Source of the DNA: an uncultured Clostridia bacterium
GTDB lineage: Bacteria > Bacillota > Clostridia > UBA1381
Assembly: GCA_947624165.1 (NCBI GenBank)
Contig: CANQJC010000011.1
Location: forward strand, 1 to 60,246
Length of the DNA: 60,246 nt
Direction of reading: 5' to 3'
The position numbers and the translations under genes were made by a program. Below are positions 48,176 to 60,142 of the stretch, one piece after another; within the stretch, counting starts at the first letter, position 1, and the number at the start of each line of letters is the position of its first letter. A model generated the notes under the pieces. The model was not told the origin of the DNA and searched no databases. It worked only from the letters and a program-made list of their open reading frames with translations.

Positions 48176-48922
48176 TTACGCCTCCTTTTTTATAACACCC
48201 AAAGCTGTAAGCTCTGTGCGACAGTTCTTTTCCAGTATGTTAAAGATTATAACGGACAAAAGTCCTTCCGCCATCGCTATCGGAAGCTGCGTCGGCGCGA
48301 ATATTCCCATAAACTTTATAAGCGAAGCAAAAAAGCCTTGGTCGGGAAAAGCGAGAGCGAGCTGTGCGGACGTTACGCAGTATGTGAACAAATCTCCTAT
48401 CGTTGCCGCAAGAAATACGGCAAGTCCCGAAGGGGCTTTAAGCTTTTTCATAAGCTTAAAAATACCGAACGAAACGAACGGACCGGCTATCGCCATGGAA
48501 AACGTGTTTGCGCCGAGAGTTGTCAGACCTCCGTGCGCCAGCAAAAGAGCTTGAAACAGCAATACGATTATGCCGAGGATCGACATTACCGACGGGCCGA
48601 ACAGTATCGCGCCCAAACCCGTGCCGGTAGGGTGCGAACAGCTTCCCGTAACCGACGGGATCTTCAGCGACGACAGAATAAATACGAACGCGCCGGAAAG
48701 CGCGAGCAGTATTTTGACCTTGCCTTCGCCGCGCATCTGCTTCTGCATACCGATCCCTCCGAAAATCAGGAACGGTATACATACCGCTCCCCACGCGACA
48801 CAGTGCGGCAAGGGCAAATACCCCTCCATGATATGCATCGCCGACGCGTATGTCGCCGGAAGCAGAAGCAGCGTCGAAAGAGCCGCTACCGATAATTTTG
48901 TCTTTTTGTTTGCTAAGAACAT
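48176..48922 (-). CDS. cbiM: Cobalt ECF transporter substrate-binding protein CbiM
   Basis: Cobalt-binding S-component (248 residues). A signal peptide (about 1-28, ending ATYASA) precedes the mature N-terminus MHIMEGYLP, in which Met and His ligate Co2+. [22 protein letters not shown] is the conserved second metal site. AAAGGAGAG precedes the ATG. It is the first gene after a cobalamin riboswitch, so import is expected to be shut off when B12 is plentiful. Confidence 0.95.
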
Positions 48923-49025
48923 AAAAATCTCTCCTTTAATATTTATTATGTTTTTAGCACATTGTCTTTCGGTGATAGTTTATGAAGCCGTTATGGTACA
49001 ATGAAAACTTTTGATTTTCCGTACC

Positions 49026-49062
49026 AAAAAAAGCCGAGAGGATCTTTGTGTCCTTTTGGCTT
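49026..49062 (-). terminator. Riboswitch expression-platform terminator
   Basis: On the minus strand a stem AAGCC...GGCTT with an inner AGGA/TCCT helix and a seven-T tail lies between the aptamer and cbiM. It probably forms when cobalamin is bound. Confidence 0.75.
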
Positions 49063-49080
49063 AAAATCATAACAGATTTC

Positions 49081-49215
49081 GCCATCTTCCCATCGCTCGT
49101 AGGCAAATGCGCTCTTTTTCGGTCGGCGATCCGACTATGACGGTAGCGTGACTGCGGAGGATTTTCACCTCGCTTCTCCGTTTAAGAATACGGCTTGCGT
49201 ACTGCACACCGTATC
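49081..49215 (-). promoter_or_regulatory. Cobalamin (B12) riboswitch
   Basis: On the minus strand this holds the conserved cobalamin aptamer core: ACGGTGTGC near 49211, CTTAAACGGAGAAG, then GAGGTGAAAATCCTC followed by the GCAGTCACGCTACCGTCA core. It ends in a B12-box-like AGCGATGGGAAGATGGC near 49098-49081. A terminator and cbiM follow, giving transcriptional repression of the cobalt/cobalamin operon. The B12 box is a weak match, so I rely mainly on the core and the gene context. Confidence 0.82.
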
Positions 49216-49226
49216 CGCCGAAAAAG

Positions 49227-49243
49227 GATATTATCATAATATC
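49227..49243. promoter_or_regulatory. Palindrome over the riboswitch promoter
   Basis: GATATTATCATAATATC is a perfect 8+1+8 palindrome covering the -10 of the cbi promoter. It resembles a metalloregulator-type operator in size, but the regulator is unknown. Confidence 0.4.
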
Positions 49244-49261
49244 ACTCTGATTTTATCACAA
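49233..49261 (-). promoter_or_regulatory. Promoter of the cbi operon
   Basis: On the minus strand, TTGTGA (49261-49256) and TATGAT (49238-49233) have 17-base spacing, just upstream of the aptamer. Confidence 0.6.
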
Positions 49262-49283
49262 TAAAATCAAAAAAGCAAGAGAA

Positions 49284-49313
49284 TTGACAATATATTACGG
49301 CGGGTGGTATAAT
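49284..49313 (+). promoter_or_regulatory. Promoter of hemL
   Basis: TTGACA (49284-49289) and TATAAT (49308-49313) have 18-base spacing, divergent from the cbi promoter. Confidence 0.78.
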
Positions 49314-49353
49314 TATATATAATTCTTTGATTTTCTGTATTGGAGAGATTGAA

Positions 49354-50640
49354 ATGGAAACAAAAAAAAGCTCTTCGGCGTTTGCCGAGGCGCAAAAATA
49401 TATACCCGGCGGCGTAAACTCTCCCGTGCGCGCGTTTGGAAGCGTCGGTAAAAAGCCGCTCTTTATCTCGCGCGCAAACGGAAGCAAAATTTACGATATC
49501 GACGGAAACGAATTTATCGATTACGTCGGCTCGTGGGGTCCGATGATTTTGGGACATAACGCGCGGTGCGTAAGAGACGCGCTTATAAAGACTGCCGAAA
49601 ACGGACTTTCCTTCGGCGCGCCGTGCGAAGCGGAAACAGAGCTTGCGAAAAGAATTTGTTCGGCTGTAAAGGGCGTGGAAAAAGTACGTATGGTAAACTC
49701 AGGCACCGAAGCGACCATGTCCGCGGTACGGCTGGCGCGCGGCTTCACCGAAAGAGACCTCATAATCAAATTTGAGGGCTGTTATCACGGTCACAGCGAT
49801 TCCATGCTTATAAAGGCAGGCTCGGGCGCGGCGACGTTCAACGCCGTTTCCTCGGCGGGCGTGCCGAAGGATTTTGCGCGGCACACGCTCGTGCTGCCCT
49901 TTAACGATATTACAGCTCTTGAAAACGCGTTCAAAAAATACGGAAACAAAACCGCCGCCGTTATTGCGGAACCCGTCGCGGGAAATATGGGGGTCATACC
50001 TCCCGCCGAGGGTTTCCATGATGCGATACGCCGTCTTACAAAAGAATACGGAGCGTTATTCATATCGGATGAAGTAATGACAGGCTTTCGTCTTTCGCCC
50101 TCCGGCGCGGACGGGCTGTACGGCATAGACGCGGATATTGTGACTTTCGGTAAAATCATCGGCGGCGGTATGCCGGTAGGCGCGTTCGGAGGAAAAAAGG
50201 AAATTATGGATTTTGTCTCCCCTTCGGGTCCCGTGTACCAGGCGGGTACTCTTTCCGGCAATCCCCCGTCGATGGCGGCGGGAAACGCGCAGCTTAAATA
50301 CTTGTCCGAGCATACGGAAATATACGACGAGCTCGAAAGAAAAGGCGCGTATCTTGAGGAAAGCTTTTCGCGTCTCGCCGAACGCAGCGGCGTGGACGTG
50401 CGCGTAAACAGGGTAGGCTCGATGATAAGCGTATTTTTTACAAGGGACGACGTGACGGATTTTGCGTCGGCGAAAAAAAGCGACGTAAAACGATTTGCGA
50501 AATATTTTAACGAAATGCTTGCGCGCGGAGTGTATCTCGCCCCATCGCAGTTTGAATCACTTTTCATAAGCGCGGCGCATACCGAAAAGGATTTGGAAAA
50601 AACAGCGGACGCTTTCGGCGAGGTTATGAAGATATTATGA
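49354..50640 (+). CDS. hemL: Glutamate-1-semialdehyde 2,1-aminomutase
   Basis: PLP enzyme (428 residues) that converts glutamate-1-semialdehyde to 5-aminolevulinate, the HemB substrate. It has PGGVNSPVRAF (about 19-29), GSWGPMILGH, MVNSGTEA, FISDEVMTGFR and the PLP Lys in TFGKIIGGGMPVGAFGG. I chose the ATG at 49354, 7-8 bases after GGAGAG; a longer in-frame start at 49327 has no site. It is divergent from, and not under, the riboswitch. Its stop overlaps the next gene by 4 bases. Confidence 0.95.
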   Translation: METKKSSSAFAEAQKYIPGGVNSPVRAFGSVGKKPLFISRANGSKIYDIDGNEFIDYVGSWGPMILGHNARCVRDALIKTAENGLSFGAPCEAETELAKRICSAVKGVEKVRMVNSGTEATMSAVRLARGFTERDLIIKFEGCYHGHSDSMLIKAGSGAATFNAVSSAGVPKDFARHTLVLPFNDITALENAFKKYGNKTAAVIAEPVAGNMGVIPPAEGFHDAIRRLTKEYGALFISDEVMTGFRLSPSGADGLYGIDADIVTFGKIIGGGMPVGAFGGKKEIMDFVSPSGPVYQAGTLSGNPPSMAAGNAQLKYLSEHTEIYDELERKGAYLEESFSRLAERSGVDVRVNRVGSMISVFFTRDDVTDFASAKKSDVKRFAKYFNEMLARGVYLAPSQFESLFISAAHTEKDLEKTADAFGEVMKIL

Positions 50641-51554
50641 CGAATCACAAAAATTTTTCTCTCGGCTATAAATCGTGCGTTCTCTGCCCGCGCAGATGCG
50701 GCGTTGACAGAAGTCTCAATAAAGGCTACTGCGCCATGGGAGACAAGCTGCGCGCGGCAAAAGCGTATCTGCATAAATGGGAGGAGCCGTGTATATCAGG
50801 CAAAAACGGCAGCGGCACCGTGTTCTTTTCCGGCTGCAATCTGCGCTGCGTATACTGCCAAAACAGAGAGATAATATCACAAGACGCGGGATTTGAAATA
50901 ACGCCGCGTCGTTTGTCGGAAATTTTTTTCGAGCTTGAGGACAAAGGCGCGGAAAATATAAACCTTGTCACTCCGACGCACTTTGCGCCGCATATTGCCG
51001 CCGCGCTAGACTTGTCGCGCGGAAGGCTTAAAATTCCCGTCGTCTATAACTGCGGCGGTTATGAAAGCGCGGATATTATCAAAATGCTCGACGGATACGT
51101 AGACGTTTATATGCCCGATTTCAAATACGCGGACAGCAGCATCGCAAAAAAATATTCATCGGCAGCCGACTATCCCGAAGCGGCGAAAGCAGCCTTAAGC
51201 GAAATGACGCGTCAGGCGCGCAGCTGCGAATTTAACGAGCGCGGTATTATGACGAAGGGCGTTTTGGTACGTCACCTCGTTCTTCCGTCGCACACGGAAA
51301 ATTCCAAAGCGGTCATAGAATATCTTTACAAAACATACGGAGACAGCATTTATATGAGTATCATGAATCAGTACACTCCCATGCCTTTTGTGAAGGATCT
51401 CCCCGAAATAAACCGCCGCGTTACGCGCAGGGAATACGACGAGGTGCTGTCGTTCGCGATCGAGCTGGGAGTGAAAAACGCCTTTATACAAGAGGGCGGT
51501 ACCGTAAGCGAAAGTTTTATCCCGTCATTTGACGGAGAAGGAATAATATATTAA
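50637..51554 (+). CDS. PflX/COG1313-type radical SAM protein
   Basis: A 305-residue radical SAM enzyme with the [4Fe-4S]/SAM motif CNLRCVYC (about 70-77) inside SGCNLRCVYCQN, preceded by an extra cysteine cluster (CVLCPRRCG...GYC) typical of the COG1313 PflX-like group. The reaction of this group is not established; it resembles activases of glycyl radical enzymes, but no such partner is nearby. The ATG overlaps the hemL stop (ATGA), so the two are coupled, and a heme/tetrapyrrole connection is possible but unproven. Confidence 0.87.
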   Translation: MTNHKNFSLGYKSCVLCPRRCGVDRSLNKGYCAMGDKLRAAKAYLHKWEEPCISGKNGSGTVFFSGCNLRCVYCQNREIISQDAGFEITPRRLSEIFFELEDKGAENINLVTPTHFAPHIAAALDLSRGRLKIPVVYNCGGYESADIIKMLDGYVDVYMPDFKYADSSIAKKYSSAADYPEAAKAALSEMTRQARSCEFNERGIMTKGVLVRHLVLPSHTENSKAVIEYLYKTYGDSIYMSIMNQYTPMPFVKDLPEINRRVTRREYDEVLSFAIELGVKNAFIQEGGTVSESFIPSFDGEGIIY

Positions 51555-51590
51555 AAAACCGCGTTTTGTTTTTCACAAAACGCGGTTTTT
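51553..51590. terminator. Bidirectional terminator between the radical SAM gene and the FG-GAP gene
   Basis: A 14-bp stem, mostly GC in the core (51555-51568 with 51576-51589), has a 7-base loop and A/T tails on both sides; it ends both convergent transcripts. Confidence 0.9.
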
Positions 51591-51592
51591 GT

Positions 51593-54499
51593 TTACAGTT
51601 TTATGTTCAGCGTGTCCGCTTTGCCGTACTTGCGGAAAATCGTCATGTTATTTTGCTGTGTGGTTTCCCAGCCCTTTGAATCGGTTTTTGCCGCTCCGCT
51701 TACGCACACGCTCATCATACCTCCGTCAAGGAAGCGTATACGCGCGCCCTTGTCGTTTTTACTTATTTTTGCCGGAAGATTTACGGACATAATATTTATA
51801 TCGTTGCTGCTCGACGTCTTGGAAATGCGCGCGCCGTTCGTAAGAGAAACAAATATGCAATTGCTCCTTTTATAATAAACGTCCGCGTCCACGCAGAATT
51901 CCTCCGCCAAAACGCCGTCGGCAAGCGTTATTTTGACGCCCACGGCGTCTTGATAATTTTTGTCGTAAAGCGGTATGTCCGTTTTCTCGGGTACCGCGCG
52001 CAGCGAAAGTCCGTTGTTCTCCCATACCGCGTCCACGCGCGTATTGTACGCCGCCGCGGTCATTTTTGCAAGCTGATCCTCCTGTACGAAAATGTATCCG
52101 TAATCGTTTACTATCGCGTCGGCTTTTTTTATCTTTTCATCCTCCGCCTGCCTGTCCGCATATACGTAATCACAATGATTATAGAAGAGAAGCGGCGAGA
52201 AATATTTTGCGGCTATGTTTGAATAAATACTGTTGCCGTTCGGCGTGTTGCACGGCTGAAGCATCAGCTGACCGTTATTGAGATAAAACGGGATCGGGAT
52301 CGCGTTTTCCGCGCTCACCTCCGGCACCGCCGTACTGTCCGGCGTTTGAGAACCGCTGTTCCAGTACAGACCCGCCTCCATCTGCGCCCGATACGTGCCG
52401 TCGTAACCCGTCGTGTTGTCATAATGGGTATCATATCCGATTTTACTCGTGCGCCACGTATGCTGATTTGCTCCGTTTCCCTCGAACGGCAGTCCGTAAA
52501 ATTCAAACGCCGCCTTATGATACGCAAGCTCGCGCTCGTCATGGAACGCATCCGCGTATTCGTGGGAAAGCGAATGTACGCCTACGTAAATATCGCGTTC
52601 TTTAAACCCGTCAAGCTGCGAGCGAAGCTTCTCCCCATAAGGAAAGTATTCGCTGTCGATAGGCACCGCCATGCCGTATTCAAGAGATCCGGCGATGAGG
52701 TCCGCCGCGCCGTCGCCGTTTATGTCGAAAAATCTCGGTACGCAGTTCGTGCCGAATTTAAGATGCGTATTGCCTTTATAATTGCATTCGTTTCCCTCGA
52801 TATATCCGTCAAACGTCAAATCGGGCGCGTAACGTATAATATATCCGTCAAACGTTCCCGCGTAAAGCTCCGCAAAACCGTTGCCGTCGGTATCGGCGAT
52901 ACACGGCGCGTAAAACGGCTGACCGCTCTCGACGGTCACAAAATCGTTGTATTCAACGCCGTAAACGCCGAGCGTTCCATAATAAATTCTGAGATCGCCG
53001 CCGCGCGAACCCACGGCGATATCCGTCATTCCGTCGCCGTTAAGATCGCCCGCCGCAGGCATGGAATCCACAAGACCCGTATTGATTATCACGCCCAGAT
53101 CCTCAAGAACCATACTGTCCTTGTCCGTGCGCGCAAAGCAGCGTATCAAGCCTTCCGCGCTGCCGCATATTATTTCATCCTCGCCGTCAAGATTTATGTC
53201 GGCGGTCTGCGGCGAGGAGTATTCTCCGACAGAGATCGGGTCCCCTTCCCCGTTCGTGAACACCGTAGACGCGCTCAGCTCATAATTCGTCTTCATTCCG
53301 TAGCCTTCATAATAGTACAGAACGCCGTCGGAGCTGCCGCATATCAAATCCATAACGCCGTCGCCGTTGAAATCGACGGGACACGGGTACGCGCGTTTTG
53401 TATAATCGGGGCTTTCAAGAAAATAGCTTATCGTATTATCGTCATAAGCGAGTGAAAGCCATTTCTTCGACGAGACAAAGTGCGTACCCGACGAATAAGC
53501 GTTTTCGTAAGGATCCATAGCGAACGCGCCGTTATCGTTAACGGCATACGTCACGCTTTCCGCTCGTCTGAACCACACGTAAGGATTACGTACGAGCGTG
53601 AAGGACGGTACTTGTCCGTAATTTTCGCACATCTCCTCGAATATTTCCGCAGAACCGTTTTCTATGCCCGTTATGTCCTCGTAATGACACTCCCACGACG
53701 CGGCGGGAGAGCCGTAATTGCCGATTATAAGTTCGGTCGAATATCCGTATTTTTTCATCGAAACAAATTCCGCAATATAATCGCGCAGCAGCTTGTTCGC
53801 GCCGACGGTCGTCGCCGAAAGATATTCGCCTTTATCCTCGGGCGAAAGATTGTTTACGGAAAATATGTTGGGCAGAAGCGGATTCGTAAAAAATACATAT
53901 CCGTTTCCGTATTGATTTATCGTGTAAATTCCCGCGCCGTCTTTAACGGCGATACACTGAGCCGTTGACGGAACGACGCCCACTCCGTAATCAAGCTGCG
54001 AAAGCGTGTCGAAGTCGGAATAGTTTTTATAAAGCTTGCAGAAATCGGAAATAAGCTCCTGTATTTTCTGCGTGTCCCTGTCGGCGGCGGGATATTCCAT
54101 ATCGACGGGACAGCCGTTTACGCTTACAAACTCCGAGGCTCCGACAAAATCATAATCAAAATAATTATAAAGCTCGTTGTCAAGCACCGCGCTCGCGCCG
54201 CCGTCCGATACGAGCGGTTCTATAACCTTCGCGTCAAACGACGGAAGATCGACCGCGCTTTTATCTATATAAAAAATATCGTATTCCGACAGTGCCGACG
54301 GATCCGACATGTCGATCATGTCCACCGTGAGCGCGGCGGCGGTAGATTCGCCCAGCAGACTGTACGCGTTCCTCGCGCTTACGCTGTCCGACGAGCCGAT
54401 GACAGCCGCCCTCAGCGTGTCGGGATTTTCAATCTCCTTTTGCTCGGCGCATGACGTCAGACAGAGCGCGGCAAGAAGCAGCGGTATAAGTTTTTTCAT
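51593..54499 (-). CDS. Large FG-GAP/VCBS beta-propeller lipoprotein
   Basis: A 968-residue surface lipoprotein (lipobox LTSC, Cys17). Residues ~25-370 are an unrecognised N-terminal region. At least five FG-GAP/VCBS-type Ca-binding blades follow near 376 (DFNGDGVMDL), 434 (DINLDGEDEI), 485 (DLNGDGMTDI), 537 (DTDGNGFAEL) and 592 (DINGDGAADL). Downstream, HSLSH (about 642-646) resembles the metal-binding HxxxH motif of NodB-type polysaccharide deacetylases, but the other NodB motifs are not evident. A beta-rich C-terminal part ends the protein. Its AAGGAG overlaps the stop of the DltX-like gene, so it is translated from the same operon. I infer a glycan-binding or glycan-modifying role in the acylation system; no family name is claimed. 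Confidence 0.75.
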   Translation of the reverse strand: MKKLIPLLLAALCLTSCAEQKEIENPDTLRAAVIGSSDSVSARNAYSLLGESTAAALTVDMIDMSDPSALSEYDIFYIDKSAVDLPSFDAKVIEPLVSDGGASAVLDNELYNYFDYDFVGASEFVSVNGCPVDMEYPAADRDTQKIQELISDFCKLYKNYSDFDTLSQLDYGVGVVPSTAQCIAVKDGAGIYTINQYGNGYVFFTNPLLPNIFSVNNLSPEDKGEYLSATTVGANKLLRDYIAEFVSMKKYGYSTELIIGNYGSPAASWECHYEDITGIENGSAEIFEEMCENYGQVPSFTLVRNPYVWFRRAESVTYAVNDNGAFAMDPYENAYSSGTHFVSSKKWLSLAYDDNTISYFLESPDYTKRAYPCPVDFNGDGVMDLICGSSDGVLYYYEGYGMKTNYELSASTVFTNGEGDPISVGEYSSPQTADINLDGEDEIICGSAEGLIRCFARTDKDSMVLEDLGVIINTGLVDSMPAAGDLNGDGMTDIAVGSRGGDLRIYYGTLGVYGVEYNDFVTVESGQPFYAPCIADTDGNGFAELYAGTFDGYIIRYAPDLTFDGYIEGNECNYKGNTHLKFGTNCVPRFFDINGDGAADLIAGSLEYGMAVPIDSEYFPYGEKLRSQLDGFKERDIYVGVHSLSHEYADAFHDERELAYHKAAFEFYGLPFEGNGANQHTWRTSKIGYDTHYDNTTGYDGTYRAQMEAGLYWNSGSQTPDSTAVPEVSAENAIPIPFYLNNGQLMLQPCNTPNGNSIYSNIAAKYFSPLLFYNHCDYVYADRQAEDEKIKKADAIVNDYGYIFVQEDQLAKMTAAAYNTRVDAVWENNGLSLRAVPEKTDIPLYDKNYQDAVGVKITLADGVLAEEFCVDADVYYKRSNCIFVSLTNGARISKTSSSNDINIMSVNLPAKISKNDKGARIRFLDGGMMSVCVSGAAKTDSKGWETTQQNNMTIFRKYGKADTLNIKL

Positions 54500-54510
54500 T
54501 TTCTTCTCCT

Positions 54511-54618
54511 TTAAAACGCTTCGTATATAAATGTTCCGTTGCCCGTGAAAAAGATGCAGACAAGAATGAACATCACGACGTAAAGCGCGAATGTCAAAAT
54601 TTTTTTCAGTATCTTCAT
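54511..54618 (-). CDS. dltX: DltX-like microprotein (35 residues)
   Basis: An ATG at 54618 with GGAGG 7-8 bases upstream opens a 35-codon frame ending TAA at 54513-54511. The peptide has a basic start (MKILKKILT), one membrane helix (FALYVVMFILVCIFF) and the C-terminus GNGTFIYEAF. The short single-helix architecture and terminal FIYxxF are hallmarks of DltX, whose conserved tyrosine has been proposed to accept the acyl group from DltB. It is encoded between the SGNH protein and the lipoprotein rather than at the head of the operon as in most dlt loci. Confidence 0.82.
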   Translation of the reverse strand: MKILKKILTFALYVVMFILVCIFFTGNGTFIYEAF

Positions 54619-54673
54619 TATTTTACCTCCGGCGCGCGGGCGGAATGTTCGACCGCCGCGCGGCGCAATATAT

Positions 54674-55537
54674 TTACAGCCACTCGTCCGTGATTTTGAT
54701 AAACTGCGGAGTACCCACGTCGTAATTCAGATGCCCGGTGTCGTAAAACGCGCCCGCAGTAAATTCTGTTTCCAAATCAAGCGTTTCCACATTGTATTTG
54801 TTTAAAACCTCGTCCGCCATGGCGCGTACCTCGCCCAATAACGGCGGCTGCTCATACTTCGGATTCCACGGCATCCATACGGCGCGGACGCGTATATCGT
54901 TTTCTTGACAGTAAACGATGACCTTCTCAAGCGCGTCCATATTCTTTTCAAACTTCTCCGTCGGAAGGCTGAAATACAGCTCGTTGTATTTCTCCATGCT
55001 TTCCGCAAGCGATCTGTCCGACAGCGCGCCGTGATAAACATGCTTTTCCTGCGGAAGATATTTGTACGGCAGCGGGTTTTGTCCATGAAGCAGCTTGTCG
55101 AAACCGTCGGTGATCATCGGGTAAAAACGGTCTCGTTCAAAATACGCGTACGGAACGTATATATCCTTATGCCAAATATACGTCGGATTCGTGTCAAATT
55201 CGTCGTACAGCGTCAGATAATTAAGACCTATCACAAGCTCCGAGCCGATATTTATATGATGTTTTTTTATCATGTCCCATAAATCCGTGACAACGCCGTA
55301 ATCAAGACCGAGATTTATGTATCCGCTCTCGCTCATATCCTCGTCGAAAGCGGAAATGACGACGCTGTTTCCGAAAAACACTTTGTCCCAGACCTTTTCG
55401 GGGTGGCGGCATTGAGTAATTTCAAAATCATTTTTCACGAAATAATCACTGTTGACGATGAAATTATTGTACGTCAGCGCGAAATCGCAGAATAGTGCGG
55501 CTGCCAACACCGCCGCTATCGCTATAATCTTCTTCAT
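54674..55537 (-). CDS. Membrane-anchored SGNH-hydrolase-like protein (DltD position)
   Basis: A 287-residue protein with an N-terminal signal anchor (about 3-23) and an extracytoplasmic SGNH-type domain. The nucleophile block reads FFGNSVVIS (Ser about 58) and the C-terminal catalytic dyad block reads FYDTGHLN (Asp and His about 266-270). It occupies the place of DltD in dlt operons and of AlgX/PatB-type proteins in alginate or cellulose acetylation systems, which pass the acyl group from the MBOAT enzyme to the polymer. Overall it does not read as canonical DltD. GAAGGGA precedes the ATG at 55537. A 55-base gap separates it from the dltX-like gene. Confidence 0.75.
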   Translation of the reverse strand: MKKIIAIAAVLAAALFCDFALTYNNFIVNSDYFVKNDFEITQCRHPEKVWDKVFFGNSVVISAFDEDMSESGYINLGLDYGVVTDLWDMIKKHHINIGSELVIGLNYLTLYDEFDTNPTYIWHKDIYVPYAYFERDRFYPMITDGFDKLLHGQNPLPYKYLPQEKHVYHGALSDRSLAESMEKYNELYFSLPTEKFEKNMDALEKVIVYCQENDIRVRAVWMPWNPKYEQPPLLGEVRAMADEVLNKYNVETLDLETEFTAGAFYDTGHLNYDVGTPQFIKITDEWL

Positions 55538-55556
55538 GACCGTTCCCTTCCGCAAA

Positions 55557-56705
55557 TTATAATATTGTGAATCCCTTTAATATATCAATAAACTGTTCCG
55601 TCGTGACAGTCATAAGCAGCGTGTTCAGCGCGAAAAGCGCGTTTACGATAACGCACCTTGTCACATACACGGCTTTATTCATTTTCCTTTTATCCGCAGC
55701 GGTAAGCCCCAGGAGATTTTCCATGCCGAGACATATGCCGTTATACACGCCGCCTATCACATACGGAAGCGTGAATCCGTGCCACATGTCCATTATAAAC
55801 ATGACCGCAAAGCCGACGCCCGCAGACGCAAGCCTGCCGAGTCTCTTTCCGTTTAAAACCACAAATATATGCTCTCTGACCCAGTCTGACAACGTTATGT
55901 GCCAGTTGCGCCAGAATTGTGTGAAAGACGCCGCAGCCCACGGTTTTCTGAAGTTTTCCGGCACGGTATAGCCCATGACCGAGCCTGTCGCGACAGCGAT
56001 ATCGCTGTATCCCGATAAATCGAAATACAAAAGAAAATAACTGGTTATTACTGTCAGGACGCTTATATACCAATGCTTCTCGCTTCCCGTCAAATATGCA
56101 AAAAAGGTTGAGACGAAATAAAGCACAACCATTTTTTTGAACATGCCTTTTATGAATCTTTTCGTATAATTTATGAATCTGTCCGCGCTGAGCGGCACGG
56201 GATTGTCGTATACCTTGCGGAAATCTCTGTAACGAAAAATCGGTCCCGAAGTGAACGTCGGGAAAAAGAGTATGTAATTCGCGTATGTGAGGAATGGGAT
56301 CTTCTCCTCGGTATAATATACGAAGTACATCGCGTCAACGGCTTTAAGCATATGATACGCAATTCCCACAAAAGATATCAGCACGGGAAGCTGCGGAAAA
56401 AACTCCGTCATTCTTCCGTATAAAAACGGTACGGTACAGAGTATACAGAAAAACACGAAGAAAAACCGCCTTGTTTTTTTCAGCGGTCTCAAAATCCGTG
56501 CGAATATAAACGTAATAAGCGCGTAGCCCGCGCTCCACAGCGCAAGCTGCCACGAAACATAAGAAATAACGGCTAAATCAGCCAATATCAGGACCTTCGG
56601 TGCCAAATCCTTCTTAAATATAAGACGCGTGACTCCCGAGATAAGCATTATAGAGCCGCAGGCAATAAGCAGCCTGAACAATACGTCAGTCTGTAAATAC
56701 CACAT
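55557..56705 (-). CDS. dltB: DltB-like MBOAT acyltransferase
   Basis: A polytopic membrane-bound O-acyltransferase (382 residues) that moves the activated acyl or aminoacyl group from the carrier protein across the membrane. It contains YILFFPTFTSGPIFRYRDF, DLSGYSDIAVATG, WRNWHITLSDW and the catalytic His in MDMWHGFTLPY, all typical of DltB/AlgI. GGGGAG lies 7 bases before the ATG. It follows the carrier gene by 23 bases. Confidence 0.92.
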   Translation of the reverse strand: MWYLQTDVLFRLLIACGSIMLISGVTRLIFKKDLAPKVLILADLAVISYVSWQLALWSAGYALITFIFARILRPLKKTRRFFFVFFCILCTVPFLYGRMTEFFPQLPVLISFVGIAYHMLKAVDAMYFVYYTEEKIPFLTYANYILFFPTFTSGPIFRYRDFRKVYDNPVPLSADRFINYTKRFIKGMFKKMVVLYFVSTFFAYLTGSEKHWYISVLTVITSYFLLYFDLSGYSDIAVATGSVMGYTVPENFRKPWAAASFTQFWRNWHITLSDWVREHIFVVLNGKRLGRLASAGVGFAVMFIMDMWHGFTLPYVIGGVYNGICLGMENLLGLTAADKRKMNKAVYVTRCVIVNALFALNTLLMTVTTEQFIDILKGFTIL

Positions 56706-56728
56706 TTCACTACTCCCCGTTCAAATTA

Positions 56729-56971
56729 TTAAAGCTTGCTTTTCACAACCTCCGCGATTTCCTCGACAGTATTCATCGGATAAAGCGTGATATCCTTCTG
56801 GGTGATTTGAACGTTATACGTCTGCTCGATGAAATGAATAATTTCAACCGCGCCGAACGAATCGACAAAGCCCTCGTTAAACAGATGCACGTCGTCCGTG
56901 AAATCGGGGTCGTCTCCTATCTCAAACGTTTTACATATAAATTCTCTGAGCGTGTTCTTGATTTCTTCCAT
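56729..56971 (-). CDS. dltC: DltC-like carrier protein
   Basis: An 80-residue acyl-carrier-type protein. The phosphopantetheine attachment Ser is in GFVDSFGAVEII (about 39). It is the same length as typical DltC (about 78-80). It would receive aminoacyl groups from the two adenylation enzymes upstream and deliver them to DltB. GAAGGAG lies inside the end of the preceding adenylation gene; the gap is 3 bases. Confidence 0.92.
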   Translation of the reverse strand: MEEIKNTLREFICKTFEIGDDPDFTDDVHLFNEGFVDSFGAVEIIHFIEQTYNVQITQKDITLYPMNTVEEIAEVVKSKL

Positions 56972-56974
56972 TTT

Positions 56975-58510
56975 TTATTCTCCTTCAATATAAGATTTTC
57001 TAAGTCCCGTTCTGTCGATTTTTCCGCTTGGCGTATGCGGGAAATGTTCCATTGTCACAATACGCGCGGGAACCATATATTTCGGTATATATCCCTGCAA
57101 GGTCATTTTAAATTTACGCGCGTTTATCTGCGCATCGGTTTCGATAAACAATACGATCTCCTGTTTCGGCGCGTCAAAGAGGGCGCACGCGCTTTTTATT
57201 CCTTCGACCGCCGCGGCCGCCGCTTCGATATCGCCCATTTCGATCCTGTTTCCTCTGAGCTTTATCTGGCTGTCGCGTCTGCCAAGGAATATGATATTGC
57301 CCTCCTCGTTTTTATACACGAGGTCGCCCGTGCGGTAAATACGCTCGTTATAGTACGGGTTCAGCGGGTTTTGCACAAACACCTTTGCGGAAAGATCCGG
57401 CGCGTTCCAGTACCCAAGAGCAATTCCGCTGCCGCCTATACAAAGTTCGCCCTGCTCGCCTGTTTCACACATTTTATTTTCATCGTTCAAAATCAAAGCT
57501 TTCATGTTCGCGCACGGAATACCTATCGGCAGGACCTCATGATTTTCATAGTCGCGGTCGACTATATAATATGTTGCGATATCCGTCGACTCGGTAGGTC
57601 CGTACATATTGACGTACATACAGCGCGGAAGATGCTTGCGCCAAATGTTAAGCTGTGTGTTCGGCATGACTTCGCCGGCAAACAGTATCAGTTCAAGATC
57701 GGGCAGCGGCGTTTTTTCGAGCGCGCCGCTGTTCGCGACGTTTATCATTACGGTCGGTACCCAGAATATGACCGATATTTTTTCATCGGCGAGAAACTCC
57801 GTCAGTTTATCCGGGTACATGAACAGAGCTTCGGGGATCAGATACGTTTTCGCGCCGGTGTAAAGAGCCGCGAACATATCGAACACCGAATTGTCAAAAT
57901 GAAACGCCGACTGCATTCCTATCACGCTTTTTTCCGTAACGGGGAACGTGTCAACGATCCATTCTATATAATCTATAACTCCTCTGTGCGAAACGGTAAC
58001 TCCCTTCGGTACGCCGGTGGAGCCTGACGTGTGCATTATGTACGCCGGATCAAGGTCGCACACATTACGCAGTACGCGGTCAATGCCGTCGTCGTCGCGA
58101 GGTGTTTTTACAAGCTCGTCAAACAGGAATATTTTCACGTCGAGCGGCGTGTCCGAAAGCTTATCCGCCCCCGCCTTATCCGTTATGATTGCCGACGGCT
58201 TTAAATTTTCCGTGATTTTGGCTATACGCGCCGCGGGCGCGTCATAATTCACCGGCGCGTACGGCGAACCGGCGTACATTATGCCCATAAAACATTCGAT
58301 CGCGCCGACCGTTTTCGGCATCAGTACGATTATCGGATGTTCGCAGCCAGTTTTTACGGATTTCATAAGACCGCTTGCTACGCTTCTCGCGCCGAGACGA
58401 AGCTCGTTAAACGATATCGAATTTTCCGCGTCCTCAAACGCTGTTTTGTCTCCGAATTTTTTCGCCGCGTTTTCCACAAAATGCACGGCACTTATCAATG
58501 TCTTTTCCAT
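56975..58510 (-). CDS. DltA-like amino-acid adenylation enzyme 2
   Basis: An ANL-superfamily amino-acid:carrier ligase (511 residues). Core motifs are HTSGSTGVPKGVT (A3), FHFDNSVFD (A4, with the Asp that binds the substrate alpha-amino group), NMYGPTE (A5), YRTGD (A7), GNRIEMGDIE (A8) and SGKIDR with the catalytic Lys (A10). It activates an amino acid as aminoacyl-AMP and loads the DltC-like carrier 3 bases downstream. Canonical DltA uses D-alanine; whether this copy does is unknown. I chose the ATG at 58510 behind AGGTGG. It is clearly paralogous to the gene just upstream. Confidence 0.88.
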   Translation of the reverse strand: MEKTLISAVHFVENAAKKFGDKTAFEDAENSISFNELRLGARSVASGLMKSVKTGCEHPIIVLMPKTVGAIECFMGIMYAGSPYAPVNYDAPAARIAKITENLKPSAIITDKAGADKLSDTPLDVKIFLFDELVKTPRDDDGIDRVLRNVCDLDPAYIMHTSGSTGVPKGVTVSHRGVIDYIEWIVDTFPVTEKSVIGMQSAFHFDNSVFDMFAALYTGAKTYLIPEALFMYPDKLTEFLADEKISVIFWVPTVMINVANSGALEKTPLPDLELILFAGEVMPNTQLNIWRKHLPRCMYVNMYGPTESTDIATYYIVDRDYENHEVLPIGIPCANMKALILNDENKMCETGEQGELCIGGSGIALGYWNAPDLSAKVFVQNPLNPYYNERIYRTGDLVYKNEEGNIIFLGRRDSQIKLRGNRIEMGDIEAAAAAVEGIKSACALFDAPKQEIVLFIETDAQINARKFKMTLQGYIPKYMVPARIVTMEHFPHTPSGKIDRTGLRKSYIEGE

Positions 58511-58531
58511 AATTGCCACCTGTTTCGCCCG

Positions 58532-60070
58532 TTATTCCTCCAGGCTTTTTTTCAGCGTTACCCTGTCTATTTTGTCATTGGCAGTATGCGGAAGCTTGTC
58601 CACGACCGTAAGAGCCGCAGGAAGCATATAAGACGGTATATATTTTTTTAGCTCCATATTGAATTTACGGAGCTTAAATTCCGCATCGCTTTCCACAAAC
58701 AGGACTATGCGCTGTTTCTTTTCATCAAATACGGCGCACGCGCCTTTTACGTCCGGCACGCACATCGCCGCGTTTTCTATCTCGCCGAGTTCTATCCTGT
58801 TACCTTTTACTTTTACCTGGTTATCTATTCTTCCTATATATATTATAAGCCCTTCGTCGTTTATATACGCAAGGTCGCCGGTACGATAAATAATCTCGCG
58901 GTAATACGGATTAACGGGATTTTGTACAAAGGCTTTGTCTGTGATCTCGCGATTGTTCCAATAACCCAGCGACACGCCCGTGCCTATAACGCATATCTCG
59001 CCCTGCTCGTTCGTTTCGGCAATTTCATTTTTTTCATTGAGTATCAAAATGCGCATATTGCGGCACGCTTTGCCGATCGGCAGAGGGTCGCTGTCCTTAA
59101 ACGGACGGTCTACAATATAATATGTGCATACGTCCGAGATCTCCGTCGGACCGTAGAGATTTGCGTAGGTACAATTCGGCAGCGCGGCGCGCCATATGTT
59201 AAGCTGAGTGTTCGGCATTACTTCGCCGCAGAACACAACATTTTCAAGCTTCGGCATTTTGATTTCGGAAAGCGCGCCCGAATTGGCTACATTTATCATT
59301 ACAGTAGGTACCCAGAAAATTGTTGTGATATCGTTGTCACGGACAAATTCCGGCAGCTTAATGGGAAACATAAACAAGGATTCCGGGATAATGACCATTT
59401 TCGCGCCGGAAAGCAGACAGCTGTATATATCGAATATGGAATTGTCAAAATAAAACGGAGCCTGATTGCCGAGCACCGAGTTTTCGTTTATTTTAAATGT
59501 GTCGCACACCCACACGGCATAGTCGATAACTCCTCTGTGCGGCACGGTAACGCCCTTCGGCGCGCCCGTTGAACCCGATGTGAACATTATATATATCGGA
59601 TCCGTATCGACCGCGCCCGAAAGAGCTTTGTCAACGAGCGCGTCGTCCGTTTCGGTTTCTGTTATTTCATTATATATATGTATTTTGATCCCCTTCGGGA
59701 TATCCAATTCTTCAAGTCTTTTTTTACCATCTTCATCTGTGATTATGTGTCCCCTGCCGCAAAGACTGCTTATGATTTTGCCTATTCGGCTCACAGGCAT
59801 ATCGTAAGCCGTGGGAACGTAAGGGTTCGCGCTGTACATCGCGCCCATAAAGCATACAAGACATGAAATGCTTTTCTTCAGATACACCATAACGGGAGAC
59901 GGCATGTAACCTTCGTCGGAGGATTTGATAAGAGCCGTTCCGACCGATCTGCCTGTTTTTCTAAGCTCGTTAAAGCTTATTTCGCCCCATTCGTCGGAAA
60001 CGGCAGTTTTATCGCCGTATTTTTGCGCGGCTCTCTCGAGCAGTTTCACAGCAGAATTTAAATGTACCAT
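58532..60070 (-). CDS. DltA-like amino-acid adenylation enzyme 1
   Basis: A 512-residue paralogue of the next gene with the same domain layout: FTSGSTGAPKGVT (A3), FYFDNSIFD (A4, amino-group Asp present), NLYGPTE (A5), YRTGD (A7), GNRIELGEIE (A8) and NDKIDR with the C-terminal Lys (A10). The two proteins share long identical runs (for example PTVMINVANSGAL and GEVMPNTQLNIWR) but differ around the substrate pocket (FYFDNS against FHFDNS and flanks), so they may activate different amino acids. GGAGG lies 5-6 bases before the ATG at 60070. It is the first gene of the operon, behind a consensus promoter. Confidence 0.88.
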   Translation of the reverse strand: MVHLNSAVKLLERAAQKYGDKTAVSDEWGEISFNELRKTGRSVGTALIKSSDEGYMPSPVMVYLKKSISCLVCFMGAMYSANPYVPTAYDMPVSRIGKIISSLCGRGHIITDEDGKKRLEELDIPKGIKIHIYNEITETETDDALVDKALSGAVDTDPIYIMFTSGSTGAPKGVTVPHRGVIDYAVWVCDTFKINENSVLGNQAPFYFDNSIFDIYSCLLSGAKMVIIPESLFMFPIKLPEFVRDNDITTIFWVPTVMINVANSGALSEIKMPKLENVVFCGEVMPNTQLNIWRAALPNCTYANLYGPTEISDVCTYYIVDRPFKDSDPLPIGKACRNMRILILNEKNEIAETNEQGEICVIGTGVSLGYWNNREITDKAFVQNPVNPYYREIIYRTGDLAYINDEGLIIYIGRIDNQVKVKGNRIELGEIENAAMCVPDVKGACAVFDEKKQRIVLFVESDAEFKLRKFNMELKKYIPSYMLPAALTVVDKLPHTANDKIDRVTLKKSLEE

Positions 60071-60113
60071 AATTTCCTCCATAGCGCAGATTTTTGCATA
60101 CAAATTCATTCTA

Positions 60114-60142
60114 ATTATAGCATTTTCATACACGGGTGTCAA
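60114..60142 (-). promoter_or_regulatory. Promoter of the dlt-like operon
   Basis: On the minus strand, TTGACA (60142-60137) and TATAAT (60119-60114) have 17-base spacing, a perfect consensus. The start near 60107 gives a short leader of about 37 bases. Confidence 0.88.

Follow-up and report, generated by a model that had tools for sequence, protein, structure and literature searches.

The usual operon of teichoic acid D-alanylation is dltXABCD (PMC5541007). According to PMC12148441, DltB takes D-Ala from DltC and transfers it to the tyrosine in the FXYXXF motif at the C-terminus of DltX, DltX passes it on to DltD, and other bacterial MBOATs carry a closely similar motif on their own C-terminus. 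Here, we describe a locus from an uncultured Clostridia bacterium (assembly GCA_947624165.1, contig CANQJC010000011.1) in which seven genes, called A1, A2, C, B, D, X and LP below, form a distinct Dlt-like system: by its anatomy it works like Dlt, it is not Dlt proper, and it is centred on one family. The window, i.e., the whole stretch of DNA analysed, is the entire contig of 60246 bases. The A1 end of the operon lies close to the contig edge, where the upstream view ends.

Like DltXABCD, the locus encodes an adenylation enzyme, a carrier, an MBOAT without a fused motif, a separate FxYxxF microprotein and an SGNH transferase. It differs from Dlt in having two ligases (three in one relative), in the place of X, which stands between D and LP and not at the head, and in the addition of an FG-GAP lipoprotein. 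In the Vibrio AlmEFG system of lipid A glycinylation, a stand-alone adenylation enzyme and a carrier also feed an envelope acyltransferase; AlmEFG is not known to include an MBOAT, an SGNH protein or a microprotein, unlike this operon. PatA/PatB and other MBOAT-SGNH acetyltransferase pairs share the MBOAT-SGNH pairing and the FxYxxF tyrosine motif, but PatA, as presented in PMC12148441, uses acetyl-CoA as donor and has its motif fused to the MBOAT. The Lactiplantibacillus operon pbpX2(dltE)-dltXABCD also encodes an extra extracellular protein with the acylation machinery. This protein, DltE, annotated as a serine-type carboxypeptidase (pbpX2), is actually a D-Ala esterase according to PMC10241514; likened by description, it is probably the best functional parallel for LP, which differs from it in being an FG-GAP protein. 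We recognised no multi-ligase Dlt-like operon in the literature, judged by titles and the openings of abstracts and with most subscription papers outside the scope; likewise, no paper of the literature collection searched, in which subscription papers are few, mentions a dlt operon, FG-GAP and a lipoprotein jointly.

Organisation of the operon

The seven-gene operon is real. Its genes occupy positions 51593-60070 on the minus strand, in the order A1-A2-C-B-D-X-LP, with the following features:

60114..60142, minus strand: promoter TTGACA-N17-TATAAT, with an extended TG before the -10 box; 12/12 consensus positions
58532..60070, minus strand: A1, stand-alone adenylation enzyme, 512 residues; Pfam AMP-binding; Cys at the DltA Cys268 column
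56975..58519, minus strand: A2, second stand-alone adenylation enzyme, 514 residues; Pfam AMP-binding; Ala at the DltA Cys268 column
56729..56971, minus strand: C, acyl/peptidyl carrier protein, 80 residues; Pfam PP-binding, 33.3 bits (cut-off 20.8)
55557..56705, minus strand: B, MBOAT acyltransferase, 382 residues, DltB-like, without C-terminal FxYxxF; Pfam MBOAT
54674..55537, minus strand: D, SGNH protein, 287 residues; GNS, GLN and DTGH motifs; N-terminal membrane anchor by inspection
54511..54618, minus strand: X, DltX-type microprotein, 35 residues, C-terminus FIYEAF; open reading frame, motif and conservation
51593..54499, minus strand: LP, lipoprotein, 968 residues; lipobox by inspection; Pfam FG-GAP
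51554..51590, minus strand: intrinsic terminator hairpin; 16-bp stem, U-rich 3' arm, -22.9 kcal/mol, z -7.5

A preliminary description of this DNA had claimed seven adjacent, tightly spaced genes under one promoter, and this is borne out by the perfect sigma-70-type promoter, by the terminator and by gaps of 3-55 nucleotides (12, 3, 23, 19, 55 and 11 in operon order, from the coordinates). The operon promoter is the top one of 21 promoter-like sites in the region; the weaker sites carry little meaning because shuffled sequence averages 13.1 of them. The terminator hairpin after LP was missed by the pattern scan that scored promoters. Two gene starts have been changed. The TTG at 60142 proposed for A1 was not kept, as it lies inside the -35 box, and A1 probably begins with the ATG at 60070, which is preceded by GGAGG; for D, the likely start is now the ATG at 55537, where most relatives begin. 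A2 starts with a GTG, an alternative ATG being present three codons downstream.

Conservation and co-occurrence

Our survey covered 70 genomes of the family, 95 genomes of the order (25 of them non-family) and 391 genomes drawn from the class. The order A1-A2-C-B-D-X-LP is found in 10/70 family genomes, window included, and an eleventh (G029) has the same order from A2 onward, a contig end cutting the rest. A B orthologue (at least 66% identity) is present in 21 of the 70, another 45 have distant MBOAT matches only and 4 have none. Among named records, B occurs in eight metagenome-assembled genomes (uncultured Clostridia, Clostridia, Clostridiales, Oscillospiraceae), one of them from goat ileum. 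X was found in 22 of the 95 genomes of the order, all within the family; it is present in 21/21 genomes that have a B orthologue and in 1/49 of those that lack one. B and X agree in 69/70 genomes (21 both, 48 neither, 1 X alone; Fisher p 6e-17, a value that ignores shared ancestry). Conservation of the seven genes together, which the preliminary description had proposed as a check, is supported by these counts. LP matches at E <= 1e-3 occur in 28/70 family genomes, and in 27 once G013 is removed, whose match is weak and partial (29% over ~107 residues). B and LP occur together in 20 genomes, B only in 1, LP only in 7 and neither in 42 (Fisher p 1e-10, again ignoring shared ancestry).

The arrangement of the genes is not the same everywhere. 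In eight genomes of one genus (G033, G035, G036, G037, G038, G039, G046, G047), the X-LP pair lies apart from A1-A2-C-B-D, as far as the contigs reach; within the same genus, G034 has all seven genes together and G043 shows X-LP only. The contigs of G042 are too short to decide between the split and the joined arrangement. LP stands without B in G015, G017, G018, G019, G020, G030 and G043, full-length and unbroken in G018 and G043, and broken, gapped or cut by contig ends in the other five.

In the class sample, LP was detected in 10 genomes (E <= 1e-10) and D in 12 (E <= 1e-6; 4 of them weak, E >= 2.7e-10), G420 being the only strong LP/D match outside the family. The G420 operon (L116, G420:C43 8334-18438) reads A1-A2'-C-A3-B-D-X-LP, with three adenylation enzymes and one carrier. 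X is absent from the 25 non-family genomes of the order and from 27/28 genomes of the order of G420, which are the part of the class outside the family that was searched for X.

Two further family loci, those of G015 and G018, keep a D-LP pair that adjoins the same heme-biosynthesis genes as in G014 (heme genes named by inspection). Searches of the remainder of these two genomes, which are 77 and 84% complete, gave neither a B orthologue nor X, and the LP of G015 is broken. Such loci constitute a natural deletion, which may reveal what D and LP do alone.

We also considered a Paenibacillus relative of the whole system and rejected it: the best A1 match among plasmids (39-40% identity) sits in a cluster where none of B, D, X and LP has a significant counterpart. 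In Paenibacillus cellulosilyticus (L102 9882-14600, a record that carries no annotation), the adenylation enzyme 39-40% identical to A1 is accompanied by carrier-like open reading frames (by eye), with no MBOAT match in the cluster.

Two adenylation enzymes

Canonical Dlt membership was rejected, as A1, A2, C, B, D and X all fail the curated DltA, DltC, DltB, DltD and DltX models; the operon proteins are distant relatives or functional analogues of the Dlt components. On the DltA model NF003417, A1 scores 302.9 and A2 283.0 (cut-off 476), and on TIGR01734, 284.5 and 271.2 bits (cut-off 559.85). The general amino acid adenylation model gives 309 bits for A1, just under its cut-off of 317.4, and 350 for A2. 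Both enzymes of the window have an intact P-loop and C-terminal Lys motif, and both genes are present in 19/19 uncut family loci, window included, a count that sets aside two further loci cut by contig ends. In a tree (17 A1 rows, 15 A2 rows), A1 and A2 each form a supported clade of their own.

According to PMC8972799, Cys268 of DltA clashes with L-Ala and not with D-Ala. At the corresponding column, A1 has Cys in 18/18 rows and A2 has Ala in 18/19. The sole exception is the A2 of G007 (L080, G007:C4 9593-11125), which reads FGAE instead of FAGE; other pocket residues are altered in it too, and its P-loop is intact. The DltA pocket (Leu, Met, Cys) is not matched: Asn and Phe replace Leu and Met, and Cys is present in A1 only. 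A1 and A2 of the window have several pocket positions in common that are unlike DltA, namely Asn and Phe after the Asp, Phe before WVPT and Asp after GPTE. Ala as substrate is not assured, because the pocket positions of A1 and A2 beyond the Cys column are unlike those of DltA. After GPTE, the A2 pocket of G034 also deviates. In G420, A2' and A3 show other pocket combinations, so that all three adenylation patterns differ. The A1/A2 pocket pattern fits differing substrates or enantiomers and suggests more than one substrate; two amino acids would then be placed on one polymer.

The terms Dlt-type operon, relocated DltX and two DltA paralogues, used in the preliminary description, thus need qualification. 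The Dlt-like route and a DltX-type microprotein away from the operon head stand, as do two adenylation enzymes (in 19/19 uncut loci) with consistently different pockets. The family names do not: B, C, D and X fall outside the DltB, DltC, DltD and DltX families, and neither ligase is DltA by the NCBI curated cut-offs.

Carrier, MBOAT, microprotein and SGNH protein

The carrier C has a DSF phosphopantetheine site (by inspection) and stays under the curated DltC cut-offs (NF003464, 31.2 for 68; TIGR01688, 25.4 for 52.35). On the ornithine-lipid carrier model it reaches 43.8 bits (cut-off 130), above its DltC score of 31.2.

B belongs to Pfam MBOAT (91.2 bits, cut-off 27). Its top curated NCBIfam match is DltB TIGR04091, with 162 bits, under the cut-off of 375, and its sequence matches in the PDB at E <= 0.001 are DltB only. 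It retains both histidines of the DltB alignment (FWRNWH, MWHG), and its short C-terminus is DltB-like. Among 18 selected proteins (7 B, 4 DltB and 7 non-Dlt MBOATs, of which 3 from these genomes and 4 from named plasmid records), the C-terminal FxYxxF is present in 7/7 of the other MBOATs, 0/7 B and 0/4 DltB, and a tree, with midpoint rooting only, splits B and DltB from the motif-fused MBOATs (99/99) and places B in its own clade beside DltB. That B could be a PatA-type fused-motif acetyltransferase is ruled out by the lack of FxYxxF in all seven B proteins. An ordinary MBOAT of the host genome (L033, G000:C4 7223-9807) ends in FLYFRF and lies beside a DHHW/AlgX-like SGNH protein; it is a fused-motif counterpart.

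By inspection, X begins with a short basic segment, which is followed by a single hydrophobic helix and the C-terminal FIYEAF. Codon positions 1, 2 and 3 differ 1418, 678 and 3174 times over all pairs of 19 of the 22 copies (three omitted), and 15 of its 35 residues are invariant across the 22 copies; X is therefore a gene and not a chance open reading frame. The C-terminus is FIYEAF or FIYEGF in 22/22 family copies, and the X of G420 ends in FIYEGV, its last Phe being replaced. Pfam DltX (PF12459) gave no match to X, and it did recognise the control, L. crispatus DltX, with 57.9 (cut-off 25), so that X is taken as an analogue or a very distant relative of DltX. It supplies the FxYxxF motif that B lacks and is a putative acyl-tyrosine shuttle.

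D of the window matches no Pfam family over its cut-off, DltD (PF04914) included; the D proteins of G035 and G037 match Pfam DltD below the cut-off of 22.7 (21.8 and 19.5). The motifs GNS, GxN (GLN) and DTxH are invariant in 9 rows. The predicted structure, of moderate quality (predicted local distance difference test, pLDDT, 64.6), matches SGNH hydrolases, DltD (3bma, 7dxm) and PatB (7tlv), and a D profile found nothing significant among PDB sequences. At 287 residues, D is shorter than the DltD chains among these matches (387-394 residues).

The lipoprotein LP

LP has a lipobox by inspection, which is not clear in every relative. It comprises a Rossmann-like N-terminal part (poorly modelled), an FG-GAP propeller at ~370-600, a part with a weak NodB-like motif and a beta-rich C-terminus; residues invariant in 20 rows include W269, E274, D275, H642, H680 and H775. 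Around H642, LP has a short stretch similar to the HxxxH helix of NodB/DUF2334 deacetylases, the second His being absent in 5/20 rows. DUF2334 weakly matches 3/20 LP members (best E 0.00098), and 10 members scored singly gave one match, at 15 bits (cut-off 26). With hhalign, the piece 598-830 reached a probability of 61 against NodB-type rows and 44 against DUF2334 rows, whole LP 39 and 23, and the three other LP pieces 2.5 or less; the rows came from 18/25 protein loci, 10 of DUF2334 and 8 assigned to NodB-type by eye. A role of LP as an editing hydrolase is a lead. An LP profile against PDB sequences gave repeat/propeller matches, the best being 8w20, a secreted esterase, aligned on its repeats. 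In plasmid records, LP matches occur in three Nostoc records only, in the propeller part.

On the other side of the operon terminator, the adjoining part of the window (48176-51554) encodes a CbiM-like membrane protein (by eye), a radical SAM protein and a class III aminotransferase resembling glutamate-1-semialdehyde aminomutase.

A proposed mechanism and its alternatives

From the gene set, the motifs, their conservation and their co-occurrence, we infer the catalytic steps together with substrates, acceptor and LP function, and we consider a Dlt-like trans-membrane aminoacylation to be probable, in which A1 and A2 load C, B passes the group through the tyrosine of X and D to an extracellular glycopolymer, and LP may bind or edit the product. 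In the cytoplasm, A1 and A2 would adenylate amino acids and attach them to holo-C by a thioester bond, the substrate of A1 probably being a D-residue and that of A2 probably a different residue or enantiomer. B would carry the aminoacyl group through the membrane and onto the Tyr of FIYEAF, X would deliver it to the Ser of D, and D would esterify hydroxyls of the polymer, most likely one of the glycerol-phosphate (lipo)teichoic type. The surface lipoprotein LP may act on the acylated polymer in a way perhaps analogous to, and not homologous with, that of DltE. The host genome encodes a 684-residue phosphoglycerol transferase related to GacH and LtaS and a CDP-glycerol-type glycerophosphotransferase, a family present in 7/8 operon carriers tested; because such transferases are encoded, glycerol-phosphate polymers are plausible acceptors, this evidence not being specific.

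Several observations weigh against this mechanism. None of the operon proteins reaches a curated Dlt cut-off and, apart from the Cys of A1, the inspected side-chain pocket positions differ from those of DltA. The fold matches of D have TM-scores of only ~0.3-0.45 by query length, on a model of pLDDT 64.6. The AlphaFold2 model of LP, built with six sequences, is poor (pLDDT 46.1), so that its fold matches, mostly propellers, add nothing beyond Pfam. Judged only by eye from open reading frame lists, the flanks contain no gene that names an acceptor polymer, and the CDP-glycerol transferase family is lacking in one operon carrier, G049. LP and the remaining genes are separable: G007 has A1-A2-C-B-D-X with an altered A2 pocket and is the sole B-orthologue genome without LP, and G015 and G018 keep D-LP without A1, A2, C, B and X at the locus (L035, L037), with Ser replacing the block III Asn in their D.

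Two alternatives concern what is transferred and to what. A1 and A2 could be redundant, or differentially used for the same amino acid (e.g., D-Ala), in which case the locus would be a Dlt analogue of the ordinary kind whose ligase has been duplicated. We give this some credence, short of an even prospect: five of the inspected pocket positions are the same in both enzymes (Asp, Asn, Phe, Phe and, further on, another Asp), with mostly conservative differences elsewhere, and a single carrier and a single MBOAT serve both ligases, but the Cys/Ala split at the enantiomer-gating column is nearly fixed, the paralogues fall into their two supported clades, and G420 has three pocket patterns for its three A genes. 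The aminoacyl thioester could also be made for another acceptor, such as a lipid, a small secreted molecule or LP itself. The absence of acceptor genes from the operon, the higher score of C on the ornithine-lipid carrier model (43.8) than on DltC (31.2) and the Paenibacillus cluster, where an enzyme 39-40% identical to A1 comes without a significant B match, speak for it. We nevertheless hold it to be improbable, since in the systems that PMC12148441 describes, MBOAT, SGNH protein and acyl-tyrosine relay together lead to envelope polymers outside the cell.

A third alternative is that LP stands outside the acylation pathway, as an adhesin or polymer-binding lipoprotein co-transcribed with it and then separated, and this is a sizeable minority possibility. 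The FG-GAP propeller and the poor catalytic-motif match, with the second His of the NodB-like HxxxH in 15/20 rows, agree with it. The preliminary description had called the lipoprotein dedicated and had named independent variation as what would speak against this; the association proves strong, but LP does vary independently in part, being absent from G007 and matched in 7/49 genomes without a B orthologue. Against an outside role, LP adjoins X in the eight genomes where X sits away from the other genes, adjoins D where all else is gone (G015, G018) and is again part of the operon in G420, a genome of another family; moreover, of the seven genomes in which LP occurs without B, G018 and G043 alone have a full-length, unbroken LP.

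Implications

A broader reading, which we put forward tentatively and regard as rather unlikely, is that of a Dlt-like class with multiple specificities. Its two or three adenylation enzymes would be interchangeable, each charging the one carrier with an amino acid of its own, a D-residue in the case of A1 and an L- or other residue in that of A2; a single MBOAT-microprotein-SGNH relay would then decorate a surface polymer with a mixture of aminoacyl groups, which the FG-GAP lipoprotein would read or trim. The prediction is that A1 and A2 charge the same carrier with different residues. If true, the acyl-tyrosine microprotein relay of teichoic acid D-alanylation would have a wider use, and its ligase module could multiply, broadening the surface chemistry. 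Uncultured Clostridia of this group may, in that case, bear aminoacyl decorations beyond plain D-Ala.

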